A stretch of DNA of 64,000 nucleotides, taken from contig NW_026622874.1 of the NCBI RefSeq assembly GCF_023065955.2, positions 6,864,001 to 6,928,000 of the forward strand. Direction: 5' to 3'. The notes beneath the pieces were generated by a model. The model did no database searches and was not told the DNA's origin. It saw only the letters and a list, made by a program, of their open reading frames with translations. This document shows, piece by piece, positions 15,721 through 60,479 of this stretch. The DNA comes from Ursus arctos. Its lineage: Eukaryota > Chordata > Mammalia > Carnivora > Ursidae. Position numbers and translations under genes: made by a program. Numbering within the stretch: the stretch's first letter is position 1; each line of letters opens with the position of its first letter.

Positions 15721-16129
15721 GCATTCAGACAGATAACACTCCCAGCATCCCAACGTATCTCTGAAAGATAAAAGTCTTTACATACACCTGAAGCTAATAG
15801 AACACTGTATGTTAACTACACTGGAATTAAAAAAACAAAAACAAAAACTCATTTTACCTTTCCCTGGTTAAAAAAAAAGTCTTTGCAAAACTTTACAATT
15901 CCTAGCAGTACAGGTTGCTGAATGGTATGGGTTTCTTCTGTCTCACAAAGCCTGGGGGAGAAGGGGCGGATTTAGACAGCTTTAGAAGTAGTCTTCCCTC
16001 CCACAGGTCAGAAGAGGCAACTTCGTTGTTTTCCCTGCTCTTGGAGCCCACCCCGAGCCCACAGACCGCCAGACCAGACCGTCCACCCAGATCCGCAGTG
16101 TGGGCCAGCAGGCAGGCCTGCGTCCCAGC

Positions 16130-16345
16130 TCTGCACGACAAAGGCCGCTGCTCTCCCTCCTGCTGGGTAATGAGCCCCTGGTAAAAAGTGTCCCAATCCA
16201 CATTCGTGTTTTTCTTTTGGCCACTAGCTAATTGCCCAATTATTTTATTTCCCCAGCAAAACTCCAGTCGGCCTGGAATCCACATTCAGGACTAAAAGCC
16301 CATGTCCAGGGAGTCCGGAGATTTGTCCTCTGTCTGTCTGCCTCT
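16130..16345 (+). promoter_or_regulatory. LEFTY2: Candidate LEFTY2 asymmetric enhancer (ASE)
   Basis: Two exact AATCCACA elements (16195-16202 and 16277-16284), the FoxH1/FAST binding consensus AATMCACA, lie 82 bp apart about 2.9 kb upstream of the LEFTY2 ATG. Between them is an AT-rich homeobox-like stretch (TAATTGCCCAATTATTTTAT). In mouse, the Lefty2 left-side enhancer is known to depend on paired FoxH1 sites upstream of the gene that respond to Nodal-SMAD signalling. A homologous segment in reverse orientation lies at about 48455-48675, which supports function rather than chance. Activity itself is inferred. Confidence 0.7.
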
Positions 16346-16434
16346 CCATGGTCCCTGCCCAGCCCTGGCCTGACCCTTCTGAGTCCCCAGCTCGTCTGGG
16401 GCTGGGAGGTGTGCTCTGCCTGATTCAGGGGTTG

Positions 16435-16595
16435 GGCAGGACTGTGCCCTGGAAAGAGCTCTGGGGTGTGGAAGGAATTCAGGCCTGGGAATCGAAGAAC
16501 GAGCTTTTTGCTGGCAGCCATCAGAAACTGTGGAAGCTTGAGCAAGTGGTCACCTCTCCAAGCCTTAGTTTTCCTGCTTTAAAAATGGGGGTAGG
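16435..16595 (+). mobile_element. MIR-type SINE remnant
   Basis: MIR core phrases 'ctgggaatcgaag', 'gcttgagcaagtggtcacctctcc' and 'cttagttttcctgctttaaaaatggggg'. Interrupted at its 3' part by the bear-type SINE at 16597-16805. Confidence 0.65.
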
Positions 16596-16596
16596 G

Positions 16597-16805
16597 GGGC
16601 GCCTGGGTGGCACAGCGGTTAAGCGTCTGCCTTCGGCTCAGGGCGTGATCCTGGCGTTGTGGGATTGAGCCCTGCATCAGGCTCCTCCGCTATGAGCCTG
16701 CTTCTTCCTCTCCCACTCCCCCTGCTTGTGTTCCCTCTCTCGCTGGCTGTCTCTGTCTCTGTCGAATAAATAAATAAAAAATCTTTAAAAAAAAAAATAA
16801 AAAAT
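16597..16805 (+). mobile_element. Can-SINE, bear-type subfamily
   Basis: Head GGGGCGCCTGGGTGGCACAG with the CGGTTAAGCG change and the 'tccgctatgagcctgcttc' body. Perfect 17-bp target-site duplication AAAAATGGGGGTAGGGG at 16581-16597 and 16806-16822, so a young insertion. Lies about 310 bp downstream of the candidate ASE. Confidence 0.96.
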
Positions 16806-16822
16806 AAAAATGGGGGTAGGGG

Positions 16823-18084
16823 CAGATTGGCCTGGATAGGCCATGTCGGCTCTCAGCTCCCTGAGTCTACAAAGTAGCCGGGGACAGGAGCAGGGGGACC
16901 CTTGCTGGGCAAACCCTCTGGGGTCCCAAATGCTCCCAGGCTACTCCCGCCTGAGAGAGGTCCCCAGGATCGAGAAGAGTTCTGTTTCCCAACTGTGGAC
17001 CACCTGCCCACGTGCCCACTGGCCCCGAGGGGCCCCCTGAGCACCGGGTTCCAGAAGTCCCATTCCTCAGTCAGAGATGCTGGGTGTTGACTAGTAGTTC
17101 CAGTCCCCACTGAGGACGAAACTCTAGAGTCGTCTGTGTGCTGGAAGGCCAACCCAGGAGCCCAGTGTCTGGCCTGGGGGAGGCAGAGAATCCGGGAGAG
17201 GACAGTCTTTTCTGTTTACAGTCTTCTTGGGAAAATGAAGTTTCAGTGTAACTGATCGGTGATCCCTGCTACAAAAGGGGCTCGGGCCACTGAGGAGTCC
17301 CAGGGGTCCTCAGCCCCGAGGTGTCTCCTGGGGGGAGGGGGGCGGCAAGAGAACCTCGTGTTCTCCTGCCCGGATGGCCAGGGAGCAGCAGCACTGGGCC
17401 TGACCTCTCCCAGTCCTGGGACAGCAGGTCCCTGTTGAAACCAACACAGGGGGCCACATGGCCTCATTGTGAACTTCCAGCCCCAGGGGGCTCCTGGGGC
17501 CTAGATGTTGGGGGCCTGGGGAGGGGTCCCCGACCTGCGAGGGGCAGCTCGGGTGTTACTTCCTTGGCACCATCCTGGCCCGTGATAAGCCACCGGGCTT
17601 CCTCTCCGCAAGTGGCAAGGGAGGTGGACCGTTGCATATTTATGGAACAGCAGCTCAGGACAGCTTCCAGGGACGAAGGGCCATGGGTCCTGGGTCGCCT
17701 GCGAATGTGACACTTCTGCACCTTTTGGCTTGACTTAAGGCCCAAATGTTTGCATCAAGTAAGTCCCTGCTAATCACTTGCAAAGAGAAGCCACAGCTCA
17801 GCTCCCGGTGGAGGCTGCGCTTGTCCCAGAGAGAGCAGGAGGCCAGTGGGGTGCAGGGGGTTTCAGACTATGGGAGACGTGAGCACTCTGATGGGACTCA
17901 GTCCCTCCCTCTGCGTTGCTCCTTCCCTTTGCTTCTGGAAGGTGCGTTTGGACACCTGCTTCCTCTGCTGTTGTGAATACATGCTCAGAGCTGAGCACAG
18001 TGCCTGGCGCGTGGTGAGCACTCAAGAAATTATTGTTCTTGTGTGCAATTTTAGAAAGACCATGGGTAAGAGGGATGGCAAGCC
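16823..18084. other. LEFTY2 upstream region, no gene
   Basis: Unique-looking sequence between the candidate ASE and the promoter. No exon recognised. May hold further LEFTY2 control elements, but I see no specific motif cluster. Confidence 0.4.
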
Positions 18085-18275
18085 CTTATTGTGCACTTAC
18101 TGTATACCAGGTTCTGGGATACACATCCTCCATGTGCCAATGCATTTGCTCTCCAGACTAGCTCTGTGAAGTAGACCCAGTTCTTACCACCCCTCCTTCA
18201 GATGAGGAAACTGAGTCACTAAGGCATTGAGGAACTTGCTAGAAGGTCAAACAGCCAGCAAGGCACGCAGGCCCC
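18085..18275 (-). mobile_element. MIR-type SINE remnant
   Basis: Reverse MIR phrases: 'ttgtgcacttactgtatacc', 'agctctgtgaagtagaccc', 'cagatgaggaaactgagtc', 'aaggtcaaacagccagcaag'. Confidence 0.8.
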
Positions 18276-19068
18276 ATATTTGCACCCAGCCTGGGAGGCT
18301 CCCATGCCCATGTGCTCTGTACCTGAGGCTTTGGACAGGACATGGGTCTGGGCAGCTATGGCCTCACTTTCCAGGTCCCTGCCCCTTGACCCAGGTCCCC
18401 CTGAGCTCTGGTGAGCGCCCACGGCCTGACTCAGGGCCTGGAGCGCTCCCAGAATGATGTGTGCAGCCTGAGGGGTTCTCTTGCTCTGAGGTCGGTGACT
18501 GCAAAGACACTTGCAAAGTTGCCCTTCCTGGGACAGCCAGAGAGCCAGGTCTGACGGCAGCAGCTTCCTCGGTCGTGGACAGGACACGGTCTTCCGAGGG
18601 CCTGTGGAGGGGAGCAGGAGGGGGCCCTCAGGGACAGACAGTGGGCAAGGATGGGTCCAGGGGCTTCTGTGGGAGCTCGCTGAATGGGGCCTGGCCCAGA
18701 GCAGGCAGGAATACAGGGTCCTCTCCCTCCTTCCTTCCTGACGAACACACAGACACCCAGTCTGGCCTCCAGGGAAGATTTCAACAGTTGCCCAATAGGA
18801 TTCTCTTTCTTACAGAATAGGCCCACCTTTTCATAGACCAGGACCGGCGCAGGGCCAGGGAAATTCAGCAGGCACTAAAATGATCACTGAGCTGCCCAGA
18901 CAGCAGTGGCTGGAGGCCCCAGGCTGGTGTGGCATGCAGACAGGCCTTTGTGCCCGTTCTAGACGGCCCCCTCCTCGAGGCTCCTGGACCCGTCTGGCCG
19001 CTGAGCTCCCAGGAGGTCCGAGGGGTGTGGCCTCCCTCCCTCCACCCCAGGCCCGTCCCGGGGCTGGC
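18276..19068. other. LEFTY2 proximal upstream, no gene
   Basis: GC-rich sequence between a MIR remnant and the LEFTY2 TATA box. Open frames overlapping it are out of frame with LEFTY2 or intergenic. Confidence 0.4.
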
Positions 19069-19075
19069 TATAAAG
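19069..19075 (+). promoter_or_regulatory. LEFTY2: LEFTY2 TATA box
   Basis: TATAAAG in a GC-rich setting, 108 bp before the start codon, which puts the transcription start near 19100 and leaves a 5' UTR of about 80 bp. Confidence 0.8.
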
Positions 19076-19182
19076 CTGGCCCAGCCTGGCCCTCCGCACA
19101 GCCCGCGTTGACCCTCCTGGAGCCTCCTAGGGGGACACGTCTGTCTGCTCCGCCCCTCCTCCTCCATCCCACACGCGGCACC

Positions 19183-21924
19183 ATGAGGCCGCTGTGGCTG
19201 TGCTGGGCACTCTGGGCGCTGCCCCTTCCCGGCCCCGGGGCCACCCTGAGTGGGGAGCAGATCCGGGGCCGTCTGCTGCGGCAGCTGCACCTCAGCGAGG
19301 TGCCCGTCCTGGATGAGGGCGACGTCGGGGAGCTGGTCACCCCTGCCCACGTGATGGCGCAGTACGTGGCCCTGCTGCAGCGCAGCCATGGTGTCCGCTC
19401 TCGAGGGAAGAGGTTCAGCCAGGAATTCCGAGGTGAGGCCTCCCTGCCGCCGTGCCCCTCATCCTTGCTGGGGCTGGGTGGGCGGAGATGGGATGAGCCT
19501 GAGGGGGGCCGTCTGGGGGCCCAGGGTCCACGGGGCCGGGCCGGGGGACCCCGGAGGGTGAGGACGGCTGCGTCTGGGGGCCCGATCTCTGCGCCGAGCG
19601 CCCCACCGCTCGGCCAGGAGGAGCTGTCCCTCTGTCAGGGCCGCAGCACGAGAGCAAGGACCTCTGGGCTTGGGTCTCAGCTCTGCTGTTTGCCGTCCAG
19701 CCCCGGACGGGTCACCCAACATCTCTGAGCCTGTTGGCTTCTCTGGAAATGAGGCTGAACCAGCTCTGACTCCCTCCCAGAGTCGGGGGCGGTTTGTGAG
19801 ATGAGACAGAAGGGCCGATTCCATCATTTTAAAGGTCAGGCGGTAGGAGATGGGCCAGGTCTGAATCCTACTGCACCCTCTCACCTCTGTGGGGCTGGGG
19901 CTCCCCTCCTCAGAGCCCAGGGCCAGGCCGGGTGGGGTGCCTGGAGGCCTGGAGACTCCGCAGAGGTGACTGCGCTCCCATTTCTGCTGTGCCCCCTTTG
20001 CCCAAAGAAGGCTGTCCGGGGACCTGCTGGCTCAGCCGGTGGAGCACGTGACTCCTGATGTCAGGGTTGTGAGTTCGAGCCCCACATTGGGCATAGAGAT
20101 TTCTTAAAAGTAAAATCTTAGGGGCGCTCAGGTGGCTCAGTTTGTTGAGTATGAACTCTCGATTTTGGCTGGGGTCATGATCTCAGTGTCATGACATTGA
20201 GCGCGGCCTGGGCTCCGCACTGGGGGGGGAGCCTGCTTGAGATGCTCTCTCTTCCTCTGTCCCTCCTCCCGCACCCCCACCTCAGGCACCCACGTGTGCT
20301 CTCGCTCTCAAAATAAAATAAAAGAAAATATTTAAAAAAACAAACAGAAAAGAAGGCTGCATGTCTGTGCACTGAGGCAAAGCCCCAGCCCGCACATTCT
20401 CCCTAGGGATTCCTGGGCAGCTCCCTGCGATCTCCCTGGGGACTCCTGGGGAAATGCTGTTCCCTGGCTGGGGCCCTGCCCCCCTCGCAGCCGCCCTGGT
20501 GCTAGAGAGGCCTCCTGACCCTGCTCCTGTCCCCAGAGGTGGCGGGCAGGTGGCTGGCGTCTGAGGCCTCCACGCACCTGCTGGTGTTCAGCATGGAGCG
20601 GCGGCTGCCCCCCAACAGCGAGCTGGTGCGGGCTGTGCTGCGCCTCTTCCAGGAGCCGGTGCCCAGGGCCGCACTCCGCAGGCATGAGCGGCTGTCCCCG
20701 CACAGCGCCCGTGCCCGCGTCACCATCGAGTGGCTGCACGTCCGGGACGACAGCTCCAACCGCACCTCCCTGGTGGACTCCAGGTGGGGGACTGAGAGCA
20801 GGGATGGGGCGGAGGAAGGGTGTGGGAGGGGAGGGGGCAGGGGTCCCGGCTGGAAGGGAAGGAGACGGGAGGGCAGCAGCAGGAGCGGGGCCCGGGGGTC
20901 CCAGCTCGATTAATTGGTGATGGGGGAAGGGGGGGCCCAGCACGGGGGAGGGGAGTGGGGGAACCCGCAGCCCCCAGCCCCCAGCTCAGGCCCCTGTCTC
21001 CGTGCTGCCCTGTCACAGGCTGGTGTCCCTCCACGAGAGCGGCTGGAAGGCCTTCGACGTGACCGAGGCCGTGACCTTCTGGCAGCAGCTGAGCCGGCCT
21101 CAGGAGCCCCTGATCCTGCAGGTGACGGTGCAGAGGGAGCACCTGGGCCCCCCGGCCTCGGGCGCCCACAAGCTGGTGCGCTTCGCTTCCCAGGGGCCAG
21201 CGGGCCCCGGGCATGGCGAGCCCCAGCTGGAGCTGCACACGCTGGACCTGGGGGCCTATGGGTAGGCACCTGGGCCCCACGGGGAGGGGGGGCACTCACA
21301 AGGCACAGAGGGAACGCAGCTCAGTCCAAGTGGGTCTTTTCAGGGTGCCTGGGAGTGAATGCCCGCAGATTTCTTCTTTGGTCTCGGGACTAATGGCACT
21401 TGTGATGTTTGGTTGTTGGTAGTGACCCGTCCTGATCATAAACAGCCAGGCTTTTGAACATAAGGAGCGCTGGATGATAAACCTCCCTCCCAGATATGCC
21501 CCCCCCCACCCTCTGCCCTGGGCCCTCCCCGCTGACCTCTGCCTCTCCTTGCCCCTGCAGAGCTCAGGGCGATTGTGACCCCGAGGTGCCCGTGACGGAG
21601 GCCACCCGCTGCTGCCGCCAGGAAGTGTACATTGACCTGCGGGGGATGAAGTGGGCTGAGAACTGGGTCCTGGAGCCCCCCGGCTTCCTGGCCTACGAGT
21701 GTGTGGGCACCTGCCAGCAGCCCCCGCAGCCCCTGCCCTTCAAGTGGCCGTTTCTGGGGCCGCGGCAGTGTGTCGCCTCGGAGACGGCCTCGCTGCCCAT
21801 GATCGTCAGCATCAAGGAGGGAGGCAGGCCCAGGCCGCAGGTGGTCAGCCTGCCCAACATGAGGGTGCAGAAGTGCAGCTGCTCCTGGGACGGGGCGCCC
21901 GTGCCCAGGAAGCTGGAGCCTTAG
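19183..21924 (+). CDS. LEFTY2: LEFTY2, Nodal-antagonist TGF-beta family protein (4 exons, 367 aa)
   Basis: Coding exons: 19183-19432, 20537-20783, 21019-21261, 21561-21924; all introns are GT-AG and the joined phases give 367 residues (human 366). The secreted protein blocks Nodal and its EGF-CFC co-receptor in left-right and mesendoderm patterning. Visible features: a hydrophobic signal peptide (about residues 1-20); a propeptide with proprotein-convertase sites RGKR (74-77) and RHER (132-135, where I recall RHGR in human); an N-glycosylation sequon NRT at 158; and a C-terminal cystine-knot domain with Cys 252, 264, 265, 294, 298, 317, 352 and 354. The cysteine used for dimerisation in other TGF-beta ligands is lacking, as expected for Lefty. 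The start codon context is GCACCATGA. Identity as LEFTY2 rather than LEFTY1 rests on position upstream of PYCR2. Two SINEs sit in intron 1. Confidence 0.96.
20016..20119 (+). mobile_element. tRNA-type short SINE (LEFTY2 intron 1)
   Basis: Diverged tRNA-like head with 'gtgagttcgagccccacattgggc' (B-box region, about 20070) and an A-rich end, immediately followed by a second SINE. Confidence 0.85.
20121..20341 (+). mobile_element. Can-SINE (LEFTY2 intron 1)
   Basis: Head GGGGCGCTCAGGTGGCTCAG, CT-rich body, ends AAAATAAAATAAAAGAAAAT. Lies within the 1.1-kb first intron, well away from both splice sites. Confidence 0.93.
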
Positions 21925-22449
21925 GTGTGGGGTGCAGCCTCCGAGGCCTCAGACAGCACAGGTGCACAGAAGCAGGTCTTGACGTAGGTGTTAATTTCCT
22001 CCTTAGCAAGTGACCCCTGGCCCCACTCAGTGCCCCCGTTTCCCCTTTCCTGCACGTTCTTCCACTTCTTGTCCTTCTGGGCCTCACCCACCCGAAGCAC
22101 TTACACGAGTAACTGATACTGCTTGGATTGCTGAGCTCTTGAAGGAAAGCCCAGGTAATCTTCGTTAAAGGATGCAGCTGGGCATGGACAGCTGGGCGCT
22201 TCTCCGGCAAATTCTCAGCTGAGTGTGGGACAACGTGCCCTATGATGTGAACTGGGGAAACAGACTGATTTACTCTATTACACGATGAGAATTAAAACAA
22301 AAATTTTAAAATATCCCCCAGTTTCCCCTAGGTAGGGAGGAGGTCTAAAAAAAACACCTGTTCCCTAAAGCGTTGACCTGTTCTGAACTCTTGTGAACAT
22401 CTCGGGTCCCCACTCCCCTGCGGTGTTGCTAGGGGGGAGGACGAAGGGC

Positions 22450-24039: not shown

Positions 24040-25010
24040 GGGAGACGGTGTGGTAGACAGAATGTTCTCCCAGTACATCCAGGCCTCCCAGTCCTTGGAG
24101 CCTGTGACTCTGTTATTTTATATTTCAAAGGGATTTTGCAGATGTAATTAAGGTTACAGACCTCAAAATAAGGAGATGATCTTGGATTAACCAAGTACAC
24201 CCAATCTAATCACAGGATCCCTTCAAAGTAGAGAATTTTCTCTGGCTAGAGGCACAGAGATGAGGCTTTAGGGAAGGTCCATGAGAAGATGTGACTGCCA
24301 GCTGACCTGGCAGCTGGACCCCAGCACCTGCAGGCTTTTCACCCCCTCCCCTGTCCTTGGAATGTGGGTTCTGGTCACCTTGCCCGGAAGCTGCCCCAGG
24401 AGGACCTTGAAACAGTGATGTGGTGCTGGCACCAGCAGGAGGGAGGGGGTACGTGACTGAACCCCAGTGAGGCCTCTCTATGAAGGGTTACAATGTGGTG
24501 GGCAGGCACAGGGATCCACTATCTTGCAGCCCCCAAGACAGGCCTCGTACATCTGTTCCCTGTGCTCGTTCAACTCATCTGGAGTGGCCTGTCTCTTTCC
24601 TCCGCCCCTCCCTGCCCACGGTGTCTGGGTGCCCGCTTCAGATCACACCCGGGAGCCCCCAAGAGGATGTGAACCAACAGAGGCAAAAAAGGCCAGAAAG
24701 ACCTGAAGCATGAAAAGGACCAGACTTGTCATTGCTGGTTTGCAGATGAAGGGGACCGCGAGCCTGGGAATGTGAGTGGCTTCCAGAAGCTGAGAACGAC
24801 TTCTGGCTGGCAGCTGGGAAGGAAAGGGGACCTCAGTCCTATAGCCACCTGGAGGCAAATTCTGCTCCCGAATGAGTCTAGGTGTTGATCTCCCCCACAG
24901 CCTCTAGAGAAGGTTCCAGATCAGCAGCATCTTGATGTGGCCTGTGGGACCCAGAGCAGAGAAACCAGCAGGACCTACGGAGACCTCTGAGCTGCAACGT
25001 GTGAGGTAAC
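24040..25010 (+). mobile_element. MLT1-like LTR retrotransposon remnant
   Basis: Contains MaLR/MLT1 phrases in order: 'gtgtggtagacagaatg', 'tttcaaagggattttgcag', 'atgtaattaaggttacag', 'cttggattaaccaag', 'gaagatgtgactgccagc', and near 24945 'cctgtgggacccagagcag'. The middle section (about 24300-24720) is less recognisable. No coding capacity. Confidence 0.6.
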
Positions 25011-28929: not shown

Positions 28930-32136
<3,207 letters not shown>

Positions 32137-44724: not shown

Positions 44725-45495
44725 GTGGGAGCAAGCTTCCCCTCGGGGCCTTTCCAGCACTACCGATTGGGGAAGTCCAGGCAACTCTTCACCCCCACAT
44801 GGGCGCCCTTGCAGCTTCTCGGTCCTCTCCCATTCTGGACTCTCCTCTTTCACTGTAATGATGAAGGTGTTCTCCATCCCCGCCCCCCCTGCTCCTGACT
44901 GGAGCCCGGCCGGTGGCTCTCTGCAATAGGGTGGGCTGGGGTGGGGCCGGGCATCTCCTTCAGCTTCTCTGACAGTTCTCTCCTGTCCCATGGAGATGCC
45001 CTGCGGATGTGAGGGTCCCTGAGAATGCCCGGGGGGAGCAGAGCCTCTCCTGGTCCTGGGGACTGAACCCTGAAATGAGCTATTCTCTGAGAAGGAAGAA
45101 TAGGTGCAGGGGCAGCCCCAGAGCCCAGAACTGACTGGGGCCACGGTGTGGACCAGGAGCCCCCCCCCCCTTGCTGGAAGGGGGTCCTGGACAGGTGCAG
45201 ACACTTCCCAATCCACACTGGGGCTCGCTGCCTGCAGGGGCCTGGTGCTCCAGGGGCTCTGGGGAAGGTGGCCCACAGCTGCGGAGCGCCAATCCTTCCT
45301 GGTCCTGGGGAGGCCGTCCTTGGCAGGAACCTACAGCATCTCCCGGGGACAAGGCTTTGTCCAGGGAGAAGCCCAACCCACCCCTCTTCTCCCTCCCTTG
45401 GAGCTGGAAGGAAAATCCAGTTTATCTCCCTCGTTTTACAAAGACATTGAGATCCCGAGATGCTCAGAAAGTTTGCACAGAGCTAAAACTCCCAC

Positions 45496-47495: not shown

Positions 47496-47804
47496 ATTTG
47501 GGTTGTTTTCTTATTGTTAAGTTTTGAAGGTTCTTTGCACATTTTGGATAACAGTTCTTTATCAGACGTGTCCTGTGAGAATGTTCTCTCCCAGTGTGTG
47601 GCTTGTCTTCTCATTCTCCTGACAGTATCTTTTGTACAATAGAAGTGTTTAATTGTAGCAAAGTCTGGCTTATTCATTGTTTCTTTCATGGATCCTGCCT
47701 TTGGTGTTCTGTCTAAAAGTCATCTCCAAACCCAGGTTCATCTGGATTTTCTCCTCCTTCTAATCTTCAAGGAGTTCTGTGATTTTGCATTTTAAAAAAT
47801 TGTC

Positions 47805-48454: not shown

Positions 48455-48675
48455 AAGGGGATAAGTAGAGGCGGACACAGGGCAAATCTCCCAGACCTGT
48501 TATCCCTCTGCAAACACAGCCCCTTTCCTGAATGTGGATTCCACTGGATTCAAGAGGTTTTTTGGTTGGGGAAAGAAAACATTTGGGCAATCAGCCAGAA
48601 GAAAGCCCAGTGTGGATTGGGAGCTGCAGCTGGGAGGACAGCCCTTTGTCATGCATGGGAAGGAGCCCAGCTCCG
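48455..48675 (-). promoter_or_regulatory. Second LEFTY-type enhancer (ASE paralogue), inverted
   Basis: On the minus strand this aligns with the LEFTY2 upstream segment 16.13-16.34 kb. Both AATCCACA FoxH1 elements are intact (TGTGGATT on the plus strand at 48533-48540 and 48611-48618), 78 bp apart versus 82 bp. Shared intervening text includes GATTGCCCAA and TTTCCCC, and shared flanks include GGAATCCACATTCAGG and GGAGATTTG. The orientation is opposite to LEFTY2. No LEFTY gene follows it on the minus strand, so it may be an orphan enhancer of a lost LEFTY1, or may serve LEFTY2 or a neighbour. Function is inferred. Confidence 0.72.
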
Positions 48676-50052
48676 CAGTCTGTGGAGCTGGGTGGGAGCC
48701 TGGATTTCTGTGTGGTTGGATTGGGCCTGGAAGTCATCCCAAAGCCAGAGCTGCTGTCCTGGAGGGGAGGAGGGCGCAGGGGAGAGGGGTCCTGACCGAG
48801 GGCCTGGAATTGAGGACATTTGAGGACAAGGGTGATGGGGTGGGGGGAGCCAGGATTTGACCCCAGCAGGAATCCAGGCTGCCAGGGCCCCAGCCGGAAT
48901 CCAGGCTGCCAGGGGAGGGCCATGGGAAAACATGGGGTCAGAGGTCATCCTCAGCCTCCATGGGTGGGCTGCTTGCTGGACCCAGCCTGGGCTCCGAACC
49001 AGAGGGGACTCTGAGGTCAGTGAGGCTGAAGCCCAGTAGCGGCTTCTGTCTACATCAGAGCCCAGCATCTGGGGGGATCCAGGGGGGCTCCCGTCCCTTC
49101 CCGTTCAGGCCAGGCACTGCTATCGGTGCTCCAGAGACACCCTAAGGCCCAGCCCCAAGTGCCCTGGGCCGTTCCAACCCCACACCCATCAGCCTCCCGG
49201 ATCCCAGGCCTGGGGGCCCATGTGGCCCCTTGGGGTCTCCAGACAAGCTCCTGGGTGGGCCCAGCCTGTCCTCCCTGAGGCTCCCTAAGCAGGATTAGGG
49301 ATCCATGTTTCAGTTCATCCAGCCCCTTCCCTGGCGGGAGCGAGCTCTGGGCTGTCTTTGTCGTGCCGCTCACTACCTGTGCGTAATCGGGTGAGTTTTC
49401 TACCCTCTTCGATACGAGTCTCCTCCTATAAAACAGGAACAATGTACTTTTTTTTTTTGCAAGGAATATCGTATTAACCAAGATGTCAGCCGAGCGCCTG
49501 GCACAGTCCCCTGGTATACAGTAGGTGCTTAATAAACAGCAGGAGTCTTTCATAGTGCTACTAATTTTTACACTGTTTTACTTTAAGAAAACTAAGTTAA
49601 CAATGTTTCTTAAATCCTTTTATACTTAACTCGCGTAGTACAAGAGTCAGAGATGCCCAGGATGTGAGACGGCCAGGCTCCTTCTCTCCTCCTCATCTGT
49701 TCCTTTCCCCTCCCCCGAGACGCTCTGTGCTCTGCAGAGAGATGTGTCGGTATTTCTTCCCACCGTGCAAATCTTACTCATCTGTCAGCACGATCTCTAC
49801 CTCTTTTGGAATTTGTAATTGTCATTTGTTATTATAATGCCATTTTTGTAAAGGTACACTGAGCCGTCTCTGCGGGTCTTGGCCCCCAGTCTCCCTGTGG
49901 CCCCTCCCGCCCCGCCCCTGAGCCAGGGCTACTAGCTTAATTGATTCGAAGGAGCTTCTTATTTTCTCTGACACCATCGCCTCCTTGAAATCAGAATTGA
50001 TCGTCAGCCAGGAGGCAGTTGAGACAAATTTGTACAACCTTCTGATGACGCT
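48676..50052. other. Inverted-repeat inner region, MIR at 49330-49550
   Basis: 49330-49550 shows MIR text in plus orientation ('gccgctcactacctgtgcg', 'cctggcacagtcccctgg', 'gtgcttaataaa'). A 28-bp unit is tandemly duplicated at 48870-48916 (GGAATCCAGGCTGCCAGGG). No gene recognised. Confidence 0.6.
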
Positions 50053-50308
50053 TGGTGGCTTAGTCTGCTCGGGCGGCCGTAGCAAAGACCACAGACTGAG
50101 GGCCTTAAACCACAGAGATGGATTTTCTCCCAGTTCTGGAGGTGGGAAGTCCAAAATCAAGGTGCCAGCAGACATGGTGTCTTCGAGGCCTCTCTCCTTG
50201 GCTTGCAGGTGGCTCCGCTCTCGCTATCCTCACACGGCCGATCCTCTGTGCTCGCGTACCCCTGGGGTCCATGTGTCCAAATTTTCTCTTCTTAGAAGGG
50301 CACTGGTC
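50053..50308 (-). mobile_element. MLT1-like LTR remnant (antisense)
   Basis: 'agcaaagaccacagactgag', 'cagttctggaggtgggaagtcc', 'aaatcaaggtgccagcagac' and 'tcctcacacggccgatcctc' are the reverse of a MaLR LTR. Confidence 0.75.
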
Positions 50309-50309
50309 A

Positions 50310-50515
50310 GGGGCACCTGGGTGGCTCAGTTGTTAAGCGTCTGACTTTGGCTCAGGTCATGATCCCGGGGTCCTGGGATCGAGCCCCGTATCAGACTCCC
50401 TGCTCAGCGGGAAGCCTGCTTCTCCCTCTTCCACTCCCCCTGCTTGTGTTCCCTCTCTTGCTGCCTCTCTCTGTCAAATAAATAAATAAAATCTTTAAAA
50501 AACAATAAAATAAAA
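50310..50515 (+). mobile_element. Can-SINE
   Basis: Head GGGGCACCTGGGTGGCTCAG, tail 'tgtcaaataaataaataaaatc'-type run. First of four contiguous SINEs. Confidence 0.95.
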
Positions 50516-50706
50516 AGTATTTTATTTATTTATTTGAGAGAGTGAGCGAGAGAGAGAGAGAGAAGGAGCAGGGGGAGGGGGCATAGGCAGAAGGAGCAGA
50601 CTCCCCACTGAGCAGGGAGACTGACATGGGACTCGAATCCAGGACTGTGGGATCATGACCTGAGTCAAAGGCAGATGCTTAACTGACTGAGCCGCCCCAG
50701 CGCCCC
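50516..50706 (-). mobile_element. Can-SINE
   Basis: Reverse copy abutting the previous tail, ending GAGCCGCCCCAGCGCCCC. The pair is tail-to-tail and could fold into a long hairpin. Confidence 0.93.
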
Positions 50707-50724
50707 TGTCCTTTCTTTTTTCCT

Positions 50725-50904
50725 TTTTCTTTTTTTTAAAGATTTTATTTGTTTATTTGTCAGAGAGAGAGAAAGAGAGAGGCAGTCAGAGGGAGAAGCA
50801 GGCTCCCTGCTGAACAAGGAGCCCAGTGCGGGACTCGATCCTGGGGACTCTGGGACCTGAGCTGAAGGCAGATGCTTAACTGACTGAGCCACCCAGTTGT
50901 CCCT
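50725..50904 (-). mobile_element. Can-SINE
   Basis: Reverse copy, ending GAGCCACCCAGTTGTCCC. Confidence 0.92.
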
Positions 50905-50909
50905 ATTTT

Positions 50910-51135
50910 TATTTTTTTTTAAAGATTTTATTTATTATTTATTTTGAGAGAGAGAGAGCACACAAGCGGGGGGGGGGGGGGGGAGGTGAGTTGGGGGGAA
51001 GGTGGAAAGGCAGAGGGAGAGGGAGAAGCAGACTCCCTGATGAGCAGGGAGCCCGATGTGAGGTTCGATTCCAGGACCCTGAGATCATGACCTGAGCTGA
51101 AGGCAGACGCTTAATGCCACCCCTGCGCCCCTGTC
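50910..51135 (-). mobile_element. Can-SINE with internal poly-G
   Basis: Reverse copy with an expanded run of about 17 G at 50968-50984. Ends with a diverged head complement. Confidence 0.9.
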
Positions 51136-51215
51136 CTTTCTTCTTTAAACTCAATGATTAGCCTACTCTACGTACTGTCTCATATTTTTTCTTTCATTTA
51201 ACAGTATGTCTTGGA

Positions 51216-51341
51216 GGGGCGCCTGGCTGGCTCAGTCAGAAGAGTGTGCGACCTTGATCTTGAGGTTGTGAGTTCGAGCCCCATGTTAGGTATTGAGATT
51301 ACTTAAAAAAAAATCTTAAAAAAAAAAAAACCCACACCAAA
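51216..51341 (+). mobile_element. tRNA-type short SINE
   Basis: GGGGCGCCTGGCTGGCTCAG, 'gtgagttcgagccccatg' B-box region, short A-rich end. Confidence 0.93.
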
Positions 51342-51644
51342 AAAACACAAACAAAACCATAATATATCTTGGAGAATCTTCTATGCGGTGCTGCCTCATG
51401 CTTTTGTTTTACTGCTACATAAGATTCCTCTGTATGGATGAGGCATAATTTATGTAACCAGATCTCTCTGAATGAAGTTCACATTGTTCCCAAGTGTTTA
51501 CTGTTACAAACGCTGCAGTACAGAGCCTAGTATAATAAGGGCCACTTTGTGTCTTTTGGGTATGAATGTGTCTTTTGGGTAAACATCTCCAAGTGGGTAC
51601 ACTAGGCTACAGAGTATATATATAGTTCTCTCTCTCTCTCTCTC

Positions 51645-51762
51645 TCTTTTTTTAAGGAGGCTCTGTGCCCAGCCTGGGGCTTGAACTCACGACCCTGCGA
51701 TCAAGACCTGAGCTGACACCAAGAGTCGGACACTTAACCAACTGAGCCCCCCGGGCGCCCCA
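51645..51762 (-). mobile_element. tRNA-type short SINE
   Basis: 'ggggcttgaactcacgaccc' (around 51676) and head complement CCCGGGCGCCCC. Preceded by a (CT)n run at 51627-51647. Confidence 0.92.
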
Positions 51763-52271
51763 TGTAGTTCTCCTTTTGATAGATATTGCCAAACTGAGCT
51801 CCATGTCCTCCAGCAACAGACGAGAGCACAGCCTCACCAGAAAAGGGTCATTAAAAACCAAACTTTAAAAAAGCCTAATCGAGAAAAAAATGGCATTTCA
51901 CTGTACTCTTAATTTGCATTTATTTTATTATGAGTAAGCATGAGCAGTTTTTCATGTTTAAAGCCATTTGTATTTCCATTCCTGACAACTGTTCGTTCAT
52001 ACCTTGTGTCCGTTTTTCTACCAGGTTGTCATTTTTGCTTTTTGTTGTGCGGACACTATACACTGTGGACGCATCTTCTGTTGCAAATGTTATATCTCCC
52101 CCTGGTTTATTAGTTGGTTTTGACTCTGTTTATGCTGAGTTTTGCCACACTCTAAAATTTTTATTGAGTTTGTTACATTTATAGATTAATTTAGGAAGCA
52201 TTGGCATTTTCTCATCCAAGGACGCAGTTGGTTTTTTCTTTCTTCATTAAGTCTTTTAAAAACTGTTGTTG

Positions 52272-52445
52272 GTGGATGCCTGGGTGGCTCAGTTGGTTAA
52301 GTGTCCGACTCTTGGTTTCTGCTCAGGTCATGATCCTGGGGTCCTGGGATTGAGCCCCGCGTCAGGCTCTGCACTCAGTGTGGAGTCTGCTGGAGATCCT
52401 CTCTCTCTCTCAAATAAATAAATAAAATCTTAAAAAAAAAAAAGC
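52272..52445 (+). mobile_element. Can-SINE
   Basis: Head GGATGCCTGGGTGGCTCAGT, tail 'ctcaaataaataaataaaat'. Confidence 0.94.
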
Positions 52446-52835
52446 CGAGAGTTTTCTCTGGCTGGTAGCAGAAGAGGAAGTCAGAGGGATTCAAAGCAGA
52501 AGGAGCATTTGACACATAGCAGCAGGCGTGAAAATGGAGGGGCCGCGTGGAGGGAGAGAGCTGCTATGGACAGAAGCCCCTCCCCGCTGAAATTCACACC
52601 TTGAAAGCTTAATCCCCAGTACAGTGGTGTTTGGAGGTGGGCACCTCTGGGGGGTGGTTAGGGCACGAAGGTGGAGGCCTCTGGATGGGATTTGCAGCTG
52701 TCTACAAACCTGGAGGGGGCTCTCGCTGGAACCCCACTGTGCTGGCACCCTGAACTTGGACTTCCAGCCTCAAGAACTGTGAGAAATACGTGCTGGCTGT
52801 TGAAGCTGCCCTGTCTGGGGTCTTCTGGTCCAGTG
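52446..52835 (+). mobile_element. MLT1-like LTR remnant
   Basis: 'agcttaatccccagtacagtgg', 'ggtggttagggcacgaagg', 'cttggacttccagcctcaag' and 'aactgtgagaaatacgtgc' follow the MaLR LTR order. Confidence 0.8.
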
Positions 52836-53179
52836 GCCTGAGCTAAGTCATGCCCTTAAGGAGCCAAGAGGGGCACGCAGGCCACGGCCAGCACGGGAAA
52901 GGGCGCAGCCCTCCAGCCCGAGGAGCTGGACCCCGCCAGCAGCCTGAGTGAGCTTAGAGCAGTGTCCTGCCCGGCAGACGCCTTGACCTCAGCCATGTGA
53001 CCCCTGAGCATAGACTCCAGCTGAGCCTGCTCAGACCTCTGACCTGCACAACCATGAGATGTTTCTGGAAAGTGTTGTTTGGAGCAGCTAAGTGTGTGAG
53101 CGTTTGTGAGGTGGGAAGGGAAGGGAAGGGTCTGCTTCTTTCTCTATAGACTTCTGCCCCCTGGGATTTTTATTTTTAT
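52836..53179. other. Intergenic, no gene recognised
   Basis: Nothing assignable. Confidence 0.4.
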
Positions 53180-53391
53180 TTTTTATTATTATTATTTTTT
53201 AAATATTTTATTTATTTATTCGACAGAGATAGAGACAGCCAGCGAGAGAGGAACACAAGCAGGGGGAGTGGGAGAGGAAGAAGCAGGCTCATAGCGGAGG
53301 AGCCTGATGTGGGGCTCGATCCCATAACGCCGGGATCACGCCCTGAGCCAAAGGCAGACGCTTAACCCGCTGTGCCACCCAGGCGCCCCTA
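53180..53391 (-). mobile_element. Can-SINE, bear-type
   Basis: 'ttcgacagagatagagacagcc' and 'catagcggaggagcctgatg' are bear-type diagnostics. Head complement GCCACCCAGGCGCCCC. Confidence 0.95.
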
Positions 53392-55430
53392 TTTTTTATT
53401 ATTTTTAAGTCATACATGGAAACGAAAGAGAAAATTTCAAAACAATACATATGCTGTGATGACGTTTTAATTTTATAATCTGTGTTTATACAGAGATTGC
53501 TGTATAATCCCACTAGAGATTTCTGTCGGCCTGCTTCCTTCCCTGGGGATGTTTACATTTTCAGCCTTATCTCCAGTCCCAGAGTAGCAAGCAGGCTTTG
53601 CCCCCTGCTTGAAGAATTCCAAAGGTTTTTAAACTCAGGGTAGAGGGCCACAGGGCCCTGGTGTGGGGGAGCCACCAGCAGGATCCCGGAATGACACCAG
53701 CCCCTAGAGGTTCCATAGTCTGTGGGGGGGGGGGGGGAGAGGGGATTGAGCACTGACACGGACAAATAAGGAAAATATTGAATGCAGTCTTTAATAGCAC
53801 CGTGTGAGCAAGAGAAACATTACAGCAGAAGAAACATCTCCACAGGGGGGGCTGGGGGGCCAGGGATTGCCCCCCCCAAGGGGGTACGGGGGCCGTGGGA
53901 CACAGGCCCTTGCCCAGCAAGGCACACACCCCAGCAGCTATGGGGCCAGGCATGGCCTGCCTGAGTCTGGAGGCTTCCTCGGGCCAGAAGGCTGCCTCGG
54001 AGGGAGCACTTCGATCTTGGGGGGATGTATGCCGGTGGAGGGCTGGCCTGGGACGTGCTCGACAGTGGTGGCAGGAGGAAGGGAGCCTCCCACCACGGCT
54101 GCAGAGCCCCCTTTGGCCCTTTGTCTCCCACGAGACAGTTTTGCTTCGATCTCTGAGCCCCTAAATACCTGATGGGATGAGGAAGGAGGGACTGGAGGTG
54201 GGTGGTGATCAGGTCCCATATTCAGAACCCACCAGAGCCCCAGGGAGGCTGCCATCCCGTCCTGAGCCACCTGCCTGACGCTGTCCCTCCCCTGGGTGGG
54301 CGGGCTGCTCCAGCCTGGGTGACAGAGGCTGGTCCGGCTCCCACAGCGCCTTCGAGGTATGTATGGAGGCTGAGTGCTCGACTCAGGGCCCATCCCCAGC
54401 TCCAGGGCAGCCACGGGCTGACACAGGCTCTGCCCCAAGGCTGCTGTTCTCTGTCCCCAGCGGCACAGGCCTCCTCCCGCACACCTCCAGGGGGGCGGCC
54501 ACTTCCCGGCGGTCGGGTCCAGATGCCGCCTTCCTTCCCCCTTGAAACACCAGACTTCCCAGGATTCAGAAACTCACGAACAAAATATCACTGTTGAGTG
54601 GAAGAGTTTTACCCAGATTGATCGATTGATTTGTTTTGTTTCTTTCTTCTCTCTTTCTTTTCTTCCTTGGGGGGGGGGGGAGGCATTAGCAATATTAGTC
54701 CCTTTTTTAACCACCAAGTAAAAAATGCACAAAAAGAAAAATGCCCATATCAACCAGTCTCTTTCCTCAAATCTTGGCCTGAAGAAGGATCTTCTGGAAG
54801 GCATTAGTCTCCATAAGCTCCTCTTCCTCCCTCCCTTTTTCTTCAATTAATTAAGCAAATGTTTATTGATGATTTTGCTCCTTCTCTGTGTCCTGGGGAC
54901 ACCCGAGGGGACCAAGAGGCAGCTGATAGGGAAAGGACGGCCAAGTGCAGGGGGGTAGGGACCTCCCAGGGAAAGGGAGGCGCCATGCAAAGCTGTGTTC
55001 CAGAGCCGGAGGCTGCCCTTGCGTCCCTGCTTTGGGTGGTTTCACAGTGCGCACCCCGACCTTGGCACAGCCTGGTCTCCCCCTTTGCTCTACGGACCTC
55101 ACGGTGCTCCTTCACTCTCCCCTACGCCCTGGGAGGAAAGCAGTGCTGACATTTCACAAAGGAGGCTCAGAGCAGTTAAGACCCTTGCCCAAGGTCATAG
55201 GTTGTTAAGGAGAGTGCTGAGGGGGACTCGTGCTGGCCCGTGACCTTGGACAAATACGTCACCAGCCAGTGTGTGCTCTCCTTCCTCCAGATACACATAC
55301 ACACGCTGGTAAGTGTATCCCGGGAGCTGGCAGGGAGGGGCCGTGAGTGCTCGCACAGGCCCCAGTACGCGCCCAATCCACATCAGCTCCTGGAACCTTC
55401 CTCCTCTTCTCAGAAGCCGGCTCTCCTGGC
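53392..55430. other. Inverted-repeat spacer, no gene recognised
   Basis: G-runs at about 53722-53738 and 54668-54680. A MIR-like reverse piece near 55150-55215 ('aaggaggctcagagcagtta', 'ttgcccaaggtcatagg'). No coding gene recognised. Confidence 0.5.
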
Positions 55431-55592
55431 CTCACCCAGTGAACTAGCAGACAGCTGTCAGATGAGGCTCAGTGACTCACAGGAGGCCGCACAGCTAGTG
55501 AGTGGCTCAGCAAGGCCAGCCCAGGGCTCACTCCTGCCAGGCAGGGGCTGGATGAACTGGCACATGGGTCCCTATTCCTGCTTTGGACAGGC

Positions 55593-55611
55593 AGCCCCCC
55601 CCCCCCCCCCG
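55593..55611. repeat. Poly-C tract
   Basis: About 18 C at the position where the left arm has about 190 bp of unrelated sequence. Confidence 0.85.
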
Positions 55612-56477
55612 GAGCCTCCCAGATGCTGGACTCTGATGCAGACGGAAGCCGCTCCTGGGCTCTAGCCTCACCGACCTCAGAGTCCCCTCTGGTTCAGAGC
55701 CCAGGCAGATCTAGCAAGTGGCCCACCCATCGAGGCTGAGGATGACCTCTGACCCCATGTTCTCTCCTGGCCCTCCCCTGGCAGCCTGGACTCTGGCTGG
55801 GGTCAAATCCTGGCCTGGAGGGGCAGGAGGGGGGTGGTGGGCACAGGGCCCTACTCCTCACCTGCCCTCCTGCCTCAACCCCCATCACCCATCTCCCCGG
55901 GACTGCCTGGGCACTGGGTTTGTCGCCCACTGCCCTCCGTGGTGCCCTCAGCTCTGAGCCCAGGGCTGGGTGTAGACTGGCTCTCAGCCAGCGCTACTGA
56001 TCCCCCAGCCCCTCACCGCCTTCTCCTCCCTCACGACACAAGATCTGGCTCTGGCTCTTTACCATTTCCGGCCCGAGGGACCCTGTGGAGATCTGGGCCA
56101 CACCCAGAGCAGGTGGAAGTGACACCGGGACTGCCATCCCTCAACAGTTCATCAGCCCATTGCCACAAACCTCCCAGCCCACGCTGGCTTTCTTGGGCCC
56201 CTGGCCAGGGCTGCCAGAGTTAGCAACCCAAAATATAGGGCTCCCAGTAAAATCCGGATTTCAGATAAACAACAAATACCTAATTAGTCTAAGTATGTCC
56301 CCAGCTGTATCCCGTATTTTATCTGGCAGCATTATCCCTAGCGACTGCCCAGGTGTTTCATTTCCCAGGTAAAACCCTCCAAACACCTGCAAACCCTCCA
56401 GCCCTTGCAGGAAGTCTCGGGAAGCAGGGGGATTGGCCCCACCCCCACCTGGCCCCATCACTTGGACTGAGTCCCCA

Positions 56478-56500
56478 CCTCCCCCCCCCCCCCCCCCCCG
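56478..56500. repeat. Poly-C tract
   Basis: About 20 C, interrupted once near its end; G-quadruplex potential on the minus strand. Confidence 0.85.
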
Positions 56501-57136
56501 CCCAGCTTCCGGGGTCAGGCAGGACTCTGGCTCTGGCTGGGAAGAGCTAGAGGGTGTGGAAGCAACTCGGGCTGGCCACCGGAAGGCCTGACGTTACGCT
56601 GCAGCCGTCAGCCACTGTGGGGGCTTCAGGAAGGGGTCACTTCTCTGAGCCTCAGTTGTCTTGGCTCAGAAGTTTGAGGGGGCAATGGATTGGCTGGTTC
56701 TTCCCCCTCTAATCTCTGAACGCATGAAGAGCCAGAAAGAGGGAGAGATGGCTCCTTATTGGACACACCCCCACTGGTGCTAAATTATCACAGGTTCCCT
56801 AGCCTAGGAAGGTGCCCCGAGAACAGTGGATTCCACCTGTGGACAACCCAGGATCTCAGCAGCCCCTGGAGCTCTCTGAGCACCAGGCCAGATGCTCGTC
56901 GCTGCAGACAGGATGGGTCCTTAATCCAGGAGCCCTGGTGGTGGGTGGAAAGTTCACTTGCAGCCAGCCACCAGACTCCAGGTCCACACACCAGGGACTC
57001 CAGTTGGCTCTGGGATTGGGGAGACTGGGAATCCGGCAGAGATGTGAATGAAATCCCAGCCTCTCCTCCCCGACACAAACCTTTCAGGTTCATTGGTCAG
57101 GCACCCCAAAACAAGGCAGACACTCATGAGCACCTG

Positions 57137-57396
57137 GCCTACGAGTGTGTGGGCACCTGCCAGCAGCCCCCGCAGCCCCTGCCCTTCAAGTGGCCGTTTC
57201 TGGGGCCGCGGCAGTGCATCGCCTCGGAGATGGCCTCGCTGCCCGTGATGGTCAGCATGAAGGAGGGAGGCAGGCCCAGGCCGCAGGTGGTCAGCCTGCC
57301 CAATGAGGGTGCAGAAGTGCAGCTGCTCCTGGGATGGGGCGCCCGTGCCCAGGAAGCTGGAGCCTTAGGTGTGGGGCGCAGCCACCGAGGGATGTG
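57137..57396 (+). pseudogene. LEFTY1: LEFTY last-exon remnant (probable LEFTY1 relic)
   Basis: Aligns with LEFTY2 21689-21951, from the codons of [11 protein letters not shown] (residue 290) to just after the stop codon, with about nine substitutions (about 96% identity) and a 2-bp deletion after the SLPN codons (57302). The deletion shifts the frame and destroys the CSC motif, so the cystine knot cannot form. Upstream of 57137 there is no match to the rest of exon 4 or to exons 1-3, and homology stops soon after the stop codon. An open frame runs through from 56759, but the first 120 codons have no LEFTY similarity. Position between PYCR2 and TMEM63A is that of LEFTY1 in human. The alternative is a short recent duplicate or gene-conversion tract from LEFTY2. 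Confidence 0.9.
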
Positions 57397-58510: not shown

Positions 58511-59099
58511 GTCAGTGTCTTCACCATTCTAACTCCTGGGGATAGAGCCTGGCACTTCCTGGACCCGTCAGTACAGACCAGGCAGGTGGTGGTGCCATTA
58601 ACTGAGGCAGGGAAGGAATGAGGACATGCAGGATGGGGGTGTGAGGGATGGGAGGGATGGGAAGAGAGCAGACAGTCTGAGAAGTCTGGGGTGGGGGGCG
58701 GACGTCCAGCCAACCACACCCAGGAACCTGGGGGAGGTCAAGTGAGAGGCCCTTGGCAGCAGGAGGTAACAGCAGGAGAGGACCGATGCCCAGGCACCAG
58801 TCAGGTGGACAAGGGCTGAGCGCAGGGGCCCTCGGCAAACTCCAGGAAACAGTGGCTGGGATTTGAGGTTGGGGTAGGGGGAGAAGGAGGAAGCCGGATG
58901 GGACAGAAAAGAACTGCTGGAGAAGCAGGAAGAGACGCCGGGCCCCCACCCCGGCGCAGAGAGCCACAGGCCGGGCTGCAATCAGGGGCAGGGAGGAACG
59001 GAGAATGCCTTTCACATTGCAACGTAAGAGGAGAGCTCAGACCTGGGAGAGGCCCGAGAAACTGCAAGGGCGCCCACGTGAGGGTCAAGTGCGGCCCGG

Positions 59100-59760
59100 G
59101 CTTTCCCGATGCGTAGTGGCGGAAAGGCCGCGAGGTTCCCCTGCCCGCACGCGCCGGGCCGCAGATGCGGAAACCCGGGCCCGCGCTGCGTCCCGTCCCG
59201 TGCGCTCCGCGCCGCCCCCGTCGAGCTGGCAGTCCCGCGGCGCAGGCCACCGGCTCCGGGCAGACCCGTTCCGGGCAGCTGGGGCCCCGGGAGCCGCCGG
59301 CCGCCCTGCACCCTCCGCCCGGATCCAAGCTGTGCGTCCTCCCGGGGCCGGCCGCCGGGGCGCGTCGGAGAGGCTGGGCGCCGCGCGGGGCTCGGGCCGG
59401 GCGGGGCCCGCGGGGCGCTGGTCGCCGCCCCAAATTGGGCCGGCGGCGCGCGCGGCTCTGCGCATGTGCGGGAGGCGCCGGAGTTTCCCTTTGCAACTTT
59501 TAAGGGAGTGGGGACGCCGCCCGGGCCGGCCAGGTGAAGCCCGCCGCGCCCGCGCCGCAGGTACAGGGGGAGGGGGCGAGGGGGAGGGCGCGGGGTGGGG
59601 GCAGGGGGTCGGGTCCCGGGCCCACAGCCCTCCCGGACTCCCCCTCCGAGGCTCTCCCTCCCCTCCCCTCGGGGGGAGCCCGACCTCCCAGCCGGGACGG
59701 GGAGCGAGGAGCGCAGCCGCGGGGCTCTGGCTTCTCGAACTCCGTGCGTGGCCGGCCTGG
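59100..59760 (+). promoter_or_regulatory. TMEM63A: CpG-island promoter, probably TMEM63A
   Basis: Very CpG-rich block with GC boxes and an NRF1-like element TGCGCATGTGCG at 59459-59470 (one mismatch to the palindromic consensus). No TATA box. Gene assignment comes from synteny with human 1q42, where TMEM63A follows LEFTY1 in the same direction; no coding exon confirms it here. Confidence 0.7.
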
Positions 59761-60479
59761 GAAGCGGCCAGGAGCCCGAGTCCCCTGCCGCTGGGAAGGG
59801 GTAGAAGCCGCTGGGGCTGTCCCTAGGTGACCCCTGCCCGCGGCCCTGCCGGAGCCCCGAGGAGGGAGGCCGGGGGTTCGGGGAGGGTGAGGAGAGTTCT
59901 GCCAGGAAACCTAAACCGCCCAGGTTCGGGGAGCTGATAAGACTGGCTACCCGAGACTCTGGGGTGGCCTCCACCGTTCAGCCCCAGGTGGTGTCCTCAA
60001 GGGCAGAACTGCACAGTGCAGAAGACCCGGTGACCGCGAGCTTCCTTCCCAGCCGAACTTGCGTGGCTGTGTGCCAGCGCCCCCGGGGGCCCGGGTTTCT
60101 GAGTAGGCCAGTGGGCTGTGCTCCCCAGTCCCCGCCCGGGCACAAGGGGGGCTGTGGAGGCACGTCGGGGCCTTTCTGAGGCCCTGGTGCCTGTTGGGTT
60201 AAAGACACTCAAGGGGTGTGGGCAGGAACAACCAGGATTTCTCCCTTTTCCCTCCTCCCCTCCTCTGAACACCTGTCAGAGTCCTGAGTGCGCTTCTGCC
60301 TCCAGGAGAACTGGAACAGAAGCAGAGGCCCCCTCCTCTTCGCAGGACCTCCTGTTTGTTTAGTGTCTGGGGCAAAGGTCTCCCTTGAATAGGGCTGTAA
60401 CAGGGACAAAACATCAGAGGGAGTCCTGACATTGTTTCCCGTTGGCTGGAAGAGTGACTTAAAATAAAAACCAAGAGCT

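Follow-up and report, generated by a model that had tools for sequence, protein, structure and literature searches.

A probable LEFTY1 distal enhancer, orphaned and with both FoxH1 sites kept, beside a LEFTY1 remnant in Ursus arctos

Mouse Lefty1 has two FoxH1-dependent enhancers, a distal one (DE) at about -10 kb and a proximal one (PE) at about -1.5 kb (PMC5686177). As described in that source, DE and PE each carry two FoxH1 sequences common to mouse and human, FoxH1 ChIP signal is present at both of them in human ES cells, and the DE is required in inner cell mass cells at E3.5. The distal element of mouse Lefty1 acts in the inner cell mass and in ES cells (PMC5686177, PMC11676945). When a region of about 1 kb at about -9.5 kb was deleted in mouse, Lefty1 went down by about 70% and Pycr2 by about 10%, and Lefty2 stayed the same (PMC11676945). 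The upstream SMAD2 sites were reported to stand in a one-to-one relation, and SMAD2 is recruited less to the Lefty1 and Lefty2 sites when FOXH1 is knocked down (PMC5305219). Judging from their positions, we take the DE, the 'Lefty1enh' and the upstream Lefty1 SMAD2 site as one element.

Enhancers of the ASE type are defined by FoxH1 sites paired at 30-200 bp (PMC2627943). The Lefty1 ASE predicted in the same work is reported as conserved across mouse, human, chimp, dog and rat, with the dog sequence being either LEFTY1 or LEFTY2. Lefty1/2, Pycr2 and Tmem63a show like responses to Nodal/Activin (PMC3121749).

The window analysed here, meaning the whole stretch of DNA under study, comprises 64,000 nucleotides from Ursus arctos. 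It contains an element that is probably a known enhancer, orphaned by the loss of its gene. The genes and gene remnants that frame it are the following:

19183..21924, plus strand: LEFTY2, four coding exons (tblastn blocks 19183-19440, 20536-20784, 21017-21262 and 21562-21921; approximate splice borders).
29484..32133, plus strand: PYCR2 coding exons (tblastn with a human PYCR2 query).
56432..57041, plus strand: LEFTY1 upstream sequence, homologous to LEFTY2 16348-17200 (alignments).
57133..57390, plus strand: LEFTY1 pseudogene, represented by the end of exon 4 (2-base deletion; identity to LEFTY2 21687-21946 at 249 of 258 aligned bases).
58900..59900, plus strand: CpG island that may hold the TMEM63A promoter (TMEM63A coding matches start at 64224 in window numbering, shortly after the window end).

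LEFTY2, PYCR2, the LEFTY1 remnant and TMEM63A are all on the plus strand, and the remnant lies between PYCR2 and TMEM63A. The genes that we take to be PYCR2 and TMEM63A were named through human protein sequences. The LEFTY2 protein of the window agrees with an Ursus americanus entry at 292 of the 293 residues of that entry, which is without a middle stretch.

LEFTY1 is dead at this locus: a frameshifted piece of exon 4 is left, and the promoter and exons 1-3 are gone. The 2-base deletion shifts the frame of this scrap, and tblastn requires two frames for it. The 91 bases that separate it from the LEFTY1 upstream sequence hold no counterpart of LEFTY2 17201-21686, that is, of 4.5 kb with the promoter side, exons 1-3 and the start of exon 4. 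The upstream sequence is well recognizable, with 174 of 252 aligned bases identical to LEFTY2 in its first part and a score of 53 against the LEFTY2 upstream region for 56707-57041 (control maximum of 18). A run of about 20 C at 56480-56500 adjoins this upstream remnant. The original prediction had described the element as an orphan whose LEFTY1 gene was gone, and the frameshifted 258-base piece between PYCR2 and TMEM63A bears this out. It named neither this scrap nor the probable decayed copy at 56.3 kb nor the inverted arms described below.

We searched the animal's own genome (2.42 Gb, 362 contigs) with the LEFTY2 gene and obtained 48 rows: LEFTY2 itself, the exon 4 scrap, and 46 rows on an intronic SINE (query bases 826-1175). 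No other LEFTY copy was seen in this search, in which 40 of 7025 first-look candidates were scored. Among the 120 of 259 protein matches listed, the 12 carnivoran rows included no species with two clearly different LEFTY proteins; isoforms account for the pair of stoat rows, and hedgehog does show two LEFTY proteins. These entries are 90%-identity clusters with shortened names, and they only hint that the loss of LEFTY1 may extend beyond bears. Within the open-licence literature, the titles and abstract beginnings of the matches listed held no report of LEFTY1 loss in Carnivora.

The element itself, its paralogue and their sites are located as follows:

16046..16347, plus strand: ASE-like enhancer upstream of LEFTY2, whose start codon is about 3 kb away (octamers at 16195 and 16277).
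48464..48726, minus strand: inverted distal enhancer copy, candidate orthologue of the mouse/human LEFTY1 DE (alignment to LEFTY2 16046-16347).
48611..48618, minus strand: first FoxH1 octamer AATCCACA of the distal element (word match).
48533..48540, minus strand: second FoxH1 octamer AATCCACA of the distal element, within the 18-base identical block TGGAATCCACATTCAGGA.

Position and paired FoxH1 sites point to 16046-16347 as the ASE of LEFTY2. The distal element is a homologue of this enhancer beyond its FoxH1 sites. In a local alignment of LEFTY2 16046-16347 with 48726-48464 on the minus strand, 194 of 244 aligned bases are identical, and the unmasked score of 69 compares with a maximum of 31 in 200 dinucleotide shuffles. 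Masking of all four octamers leaves a score of 52, against a maximum of 21 in 1614 control alignments (807 window segments on both strands), so the similarity does not fall to chance outside the octamers. The stretch between the sites alone scores 24.5 (control 15) and the upstream flank alone 30.5 (control 19.5); the 63-base flank on the gene side, taken alone, did not beat its control (15 vs. 16). Chance similarity is ruled out by these scores. The match first proposed, between 48455-48675 on the minus strand and 16.13-16.34 kb upstream of LEFTY2, is therefore real and extends further, and the idea of an inverted paralogue of the LEFTY2 enhancer on the LEFTY1 side agrees with both alignment and gene order. 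Farther upstream, homology between the sequence before LEFTY2 16045 and the interval was unconvincing (22.5 vs. 19.0 for reversed and 17.7 for shuffled sequence).

The sequence AATCCACA is given as FoxH1-binding in a figure legend of PMC9634164. Both octamers of the distal element are perfect, and the spacing claimed for them was correct: 78 bp, compared with 82 bp at LEFTY2 (16195 and 16277, plus strand), which fits the 30-200 bp of the ASE type. Their bases are kept at 16 of 16 positions, against 194 of 302 LEFTY2 positions overall; the claim that the surroundings had diverged far more thus holds, though moderately. Intact octamer windows clear of both sites amount to 7 of 265, and intact octamer pairs 82 apart to 4 of 213, with the true pair and its overlaps counted. 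In the whole window, AATCCACA occurs 7 times when 1.74 are expected, a count that none of 100 shuffles reached. Three more octamers are found on the plus strand at 45210, 45621 and 55375, near the chance number of 1.74. Word scans for SMAD, SOX, OCT, NKX and T-box motifs gave nothing decisive.

A further stretch, close to the LEFTY1 remnant, is relevant to the history of the element:

56296..56445, plus strand: probably a direct copy of the enhancer, decayed and without either octamer, in LEFTY2-like position (alignment and three-way alignment).

This stretch directly precedes the LEFTY2-like sequence starting at 56432, which matches the place of the LEFTY2 enhancer. Over the whole interval 55815-56431, the LEFTY2 query scored 22.5, reached by none of 546 control alignments (maximum of 20.5), and the distal-copy query scored 21.5, reached by 4 of 546 (maximum of 23.0); both queries place the decayed copy at the same spot. 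For a narrower target, picked after a first look, 0 of 1050 controls reached the score with the LEFTY2 query and 1 of 1050 with the distal-copy query. The end-anchored score was reached by 3 of 1050 controls. When compared to block shuffles, which attained the scores of both queries, the copy was not significant (22.5 vs. a maximum of 23.5). Another placement, at 55979-56195, scored 27.0 with a longer distal query and was dropped on a shuffle maximum of 30.5. On these alignments, 56296-56445 is probably a direct copy of the enhancer that has decayed.

We suggest, with a probability of roughly two in three, that these parts are best explained together: the distal element would be the orphaned orthologue of the LEFTY1 DE, probably as an inverted second copy of the enhancer, with the gene-near copy decayed and a weak output to neighbouring genes. 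The orthology is proposed from position, gene order and site pairing. Like the DE, the bear element lies upstream of LEFTY1 on the PYCR2 side and has two FoxH1 sites; unlike the DE, it belongs to a dead gene. It lies 8.5 kb from the exon 4 scrap as measured, and about 10.4 kb from the LEFTY1 start codon only once the missing LEFTY2 stretch 17200-19183 is added back, as against about 9.5-10 kb for the DE.

The other described systems are more distant relatives. With the LEFTY2 ASE, the distal element shares sequence homology and both octamers (78 vs. 82 bp), but it is inverted and far from LEFTY2, beyond PYCR2. The decayed copy resembles the mouse Lefty1 PE (about -1.5 kb) in lying on the gene-near side, although it is without both octamers and reconstructs to about -2.7 kb. 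The distal and the probable proximal copy in the bear would resemble the DE and PE arrangement of mouse Lefty1. The Nodal and Pitx2 ASEs also have FoxH1 sites paired 30-200 bp apart; unlike the bear element, those of turtle lie inside introns of their genes (PMC9634164).

At the mechanistic level, 48464-48726 on the minus strand would have been the distal Nodal-responsive enhancer of the former LEFTY1, orthologous to the DE, the Lefty1enh and the upstream SMAD2 site. FOXH1 would sit on its two FoxH1 sites, spaced by about 80 bp, and SMAD2-SMAD4 would be brought in on a Nodal or Activin signal. The element would probably have arisen as an inverted second copy of the LEFTY enhancer, and the copy in the original gene-near place would have lost both FoxH1 sites. 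The loss of the promoter and exons 1-3 of LEFTY1 would then have orphaned the distal copy, which is most likely still able to bind FOXH1-SMAD2. Any remaining output would be weak and would go to TMEM63A and PYCR2, the closest neighbours that respond to Nodal, rather than to LEFTY2.

The alternative that survives best is that the distal enhancer is a pure relic, functionless since LEFTY1 died, with its sites surviving by chance or because of the short time elapsed; we place it a little short of an even bet. The exon 4 scrap speaks for it. It differs from LEFTY2 at 9 of 258 aligned bases, and if this dates the loss, 16 bases would survive neutrally with a probability of 0.57 (3.5% divergence, the exon 4 clock); the probability is 0.13 at 12% and 0.003 at 31%, the latter being the divergence of the neighbouring upstream region. 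Moreover, 5 of the 7 substitutions before the stop (in the LEFTY2 frame) change the amino acid, as expected of a dead gene. However, the exon 4 clock is unsafe, because gene conversion rather than a recent loss could explain the identity of the scrap to LEFTY2. The first 84 bases of the scrap are identical to LEFTY2, and scrap and bear LEFTY2 have a residue combination in common that is absent from the other carnivoran proteins compared. The likeness suggests either a recent loss or later gene conversion. In a word search, LEFTY was absent from a paper on gene conversion (PMC2720389). Also against a relic, the distal copy kept both octamers intact and the probable proximal copy lost both, which points to retention. 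Selection may have continued since the gene loss; the octamers could also have been constrained solely during the lifetime of LEFTY1.

Our reading of the element as an inverted second copy also depends on how the region between the two copies was formed, where two further features were found:

48849..49400, strand not assigned: inverted repeat, left arm, next to the distal copy (little or no right-arm counterpart for the 196 bases of 49088-49283).
55470..55814, strand not assigned: inverted repeat, right arm, with about 89% complementarity to the left arm.

A whole-genome search with 48849-49330 of the left arm matched the two arms only, and the arms are therefore probably no dispersed repeat. 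Arms and enhancer copies succeed one another in the same order, which suggests that the LEFTY1 upstream region underwent an inverted duplication. At about 89%, the arms resemble each other far more closely than the two enhancer copies do; gene conversion between the arms could account for this likeness, and a single duplication event alone does not.

The competing account is a simple inversion of 8 kb (48464-56431) that moved the LEFTY1 enhancer without any duplication, which we consider unlikely, though still worth serious weight. The LEFTY2 upstream region finds its counterpart in two halves, one at 48464-48726 on the minus strand and the other from 56432 onward on the plus strand, with the junction at LEFTY2 16347/16348, as an inversion would leave them, and the failure of the decayed copy against block shuffles is on the same side. 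A clean inversion at 16347/16348 was in fact the first idea, and it was demoted once the decayed direct copy appeared. Against it, that copy exceeds all 546 real-segment controls with the LEFTY2 query and all but 4 of 546 with the distal-copy query, and the interval holds inverted arms that are found nowhere else. The probable direct copy, together with locus-specific inverted arms in between, favours an inverted duplication over a simple flip.

Several weaker similarities were seen in the window. Direct ones link 7345-7520, far upstream on the LEFTY2 side, to 47532-47716, left of the distal enhancer (63%), and 24905-24996, downstream of LEFTY2, to 52955-53048, between the enhancer copies (68%). 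The match of 13150-13480 to 44862-45170 on the minus strand (30.0 vs. control 21.1) and that of 11314-11617 to 48738-49036 on the plus strand, which touches the left inverted arm (28.5 vs. 23.0), may both be a matter of composition. A further weak match was also above its controls (25.5 vs. 20.0 and 19.3).

A more doubtful proposal is that selection keeps the element as a Nodal-responsive enhancer of TMEM63A and/or PYCR2. Measured from the element, the TMEM63A CpG island is about 10.5 kb away, PYCR2 about 19 kb and LEFTY2 about 29 kb. Smad2/3 activation in mouse ES cells raised Tmem63a 3.4-fold and Pycr2 1.9-fold within 4 h, in the absence of protein synthesis, and each has 0 in a table column that we take to be the ASE count (PMC2627943). 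The Lefty1/2-Pycr2-Tmem63a stretch is reported as a pSmad2 hotspot (PMC3121749), and contacts of the Lefty2 promoter with Lefty1, Tmem63a and Pycr2 are described in mouse (PMC5484669). On the other side, deletion of the mouse Lefty1 enhancer makes Pycr2 drop by just about 10%, and the main text of that article is without mention of Tmem63a (PMC11676945). If anything retains the element, TMEM63A and PYCR2 would be likelier targets than LEFTY2. PYCR2, one of the two targets first put forward, is weakly favoured by the small drop in mouse; TMEM63A, which is closer and co-responsive to SMAD2, had been overlooked.

LEFTY2 was the other target put forward, and a role of the element as its distal left-side enhancer is very improbable. 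In its favour are the paralogy of the element to the LEFTY2 enhancer, the presence of both FoxH1 sites and, in mouse, the contact between the two enhancers seen by chromatin capture (PMC11676945). Nevertheless, Lefty2 stayed the same in two mouse studies in which the element upstream of Lefty1 was deleted, and an intact Lefty1 enhancer failed to stand in for the deleted Lefty2 one (PMC11676945, PMC5305219); in the bear, LEFTY2 also lies the farthest away, beyond PYCR2. As for the left-side label that the original prediction gave to the element, the paralogy to the LEFTY2 enhancer stood, and the element is more probably the counterpart of the LEFTY1 DE than a stray left-side enhancer, although it may still have a left-side role.

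Finally, that the similarity reflects chance or a repeat, as short octamers in a repeat-rich window might suggest, can be set aside as practically excluded by the masked-octamer scores given above and by own-genome DNA searches with the element, a single match there, and with the left arm, which rejected a dispersed-repeat origin. These DNA searches were coarse and leave room for other diverged copies: the element and LEFTY2-enhancer queries each retrieved themselves only, not one another, so that even the LEFTY2 paralogue was missed.

Beyond the orphaned DE orthologue that we favour, a broader and rather improbable scenario would be that the enhancer, which arose by inverted duplication of the LEFTY enhancer, outlived LEFTY1 by serving TMEM63A and PYCR2 in a common Nodal-SMAD2 hotspot, while the gene-near copy, serving LEFTY1 only, decayed. 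Separate LEFTY duplications have been proposed for mouse and human (PMC11676945). Should mouse and human also have the inverted distal copy, the LEFTY1/LEFTY2 duplication would predate those, and gene conversion would have misled the mouse/human gene trees.

The locus offers a natural experiment, in which a tandem left-right gene pair is minus one member, and the distal enhancer copy keeps the key sites and the near copy does not. Comparison of the bear with other carnivorans bears on whether enhancers persist for neighbouring genes after the death of their own gene, and on whether the LEFTY duplication of mammals was one old event or several.
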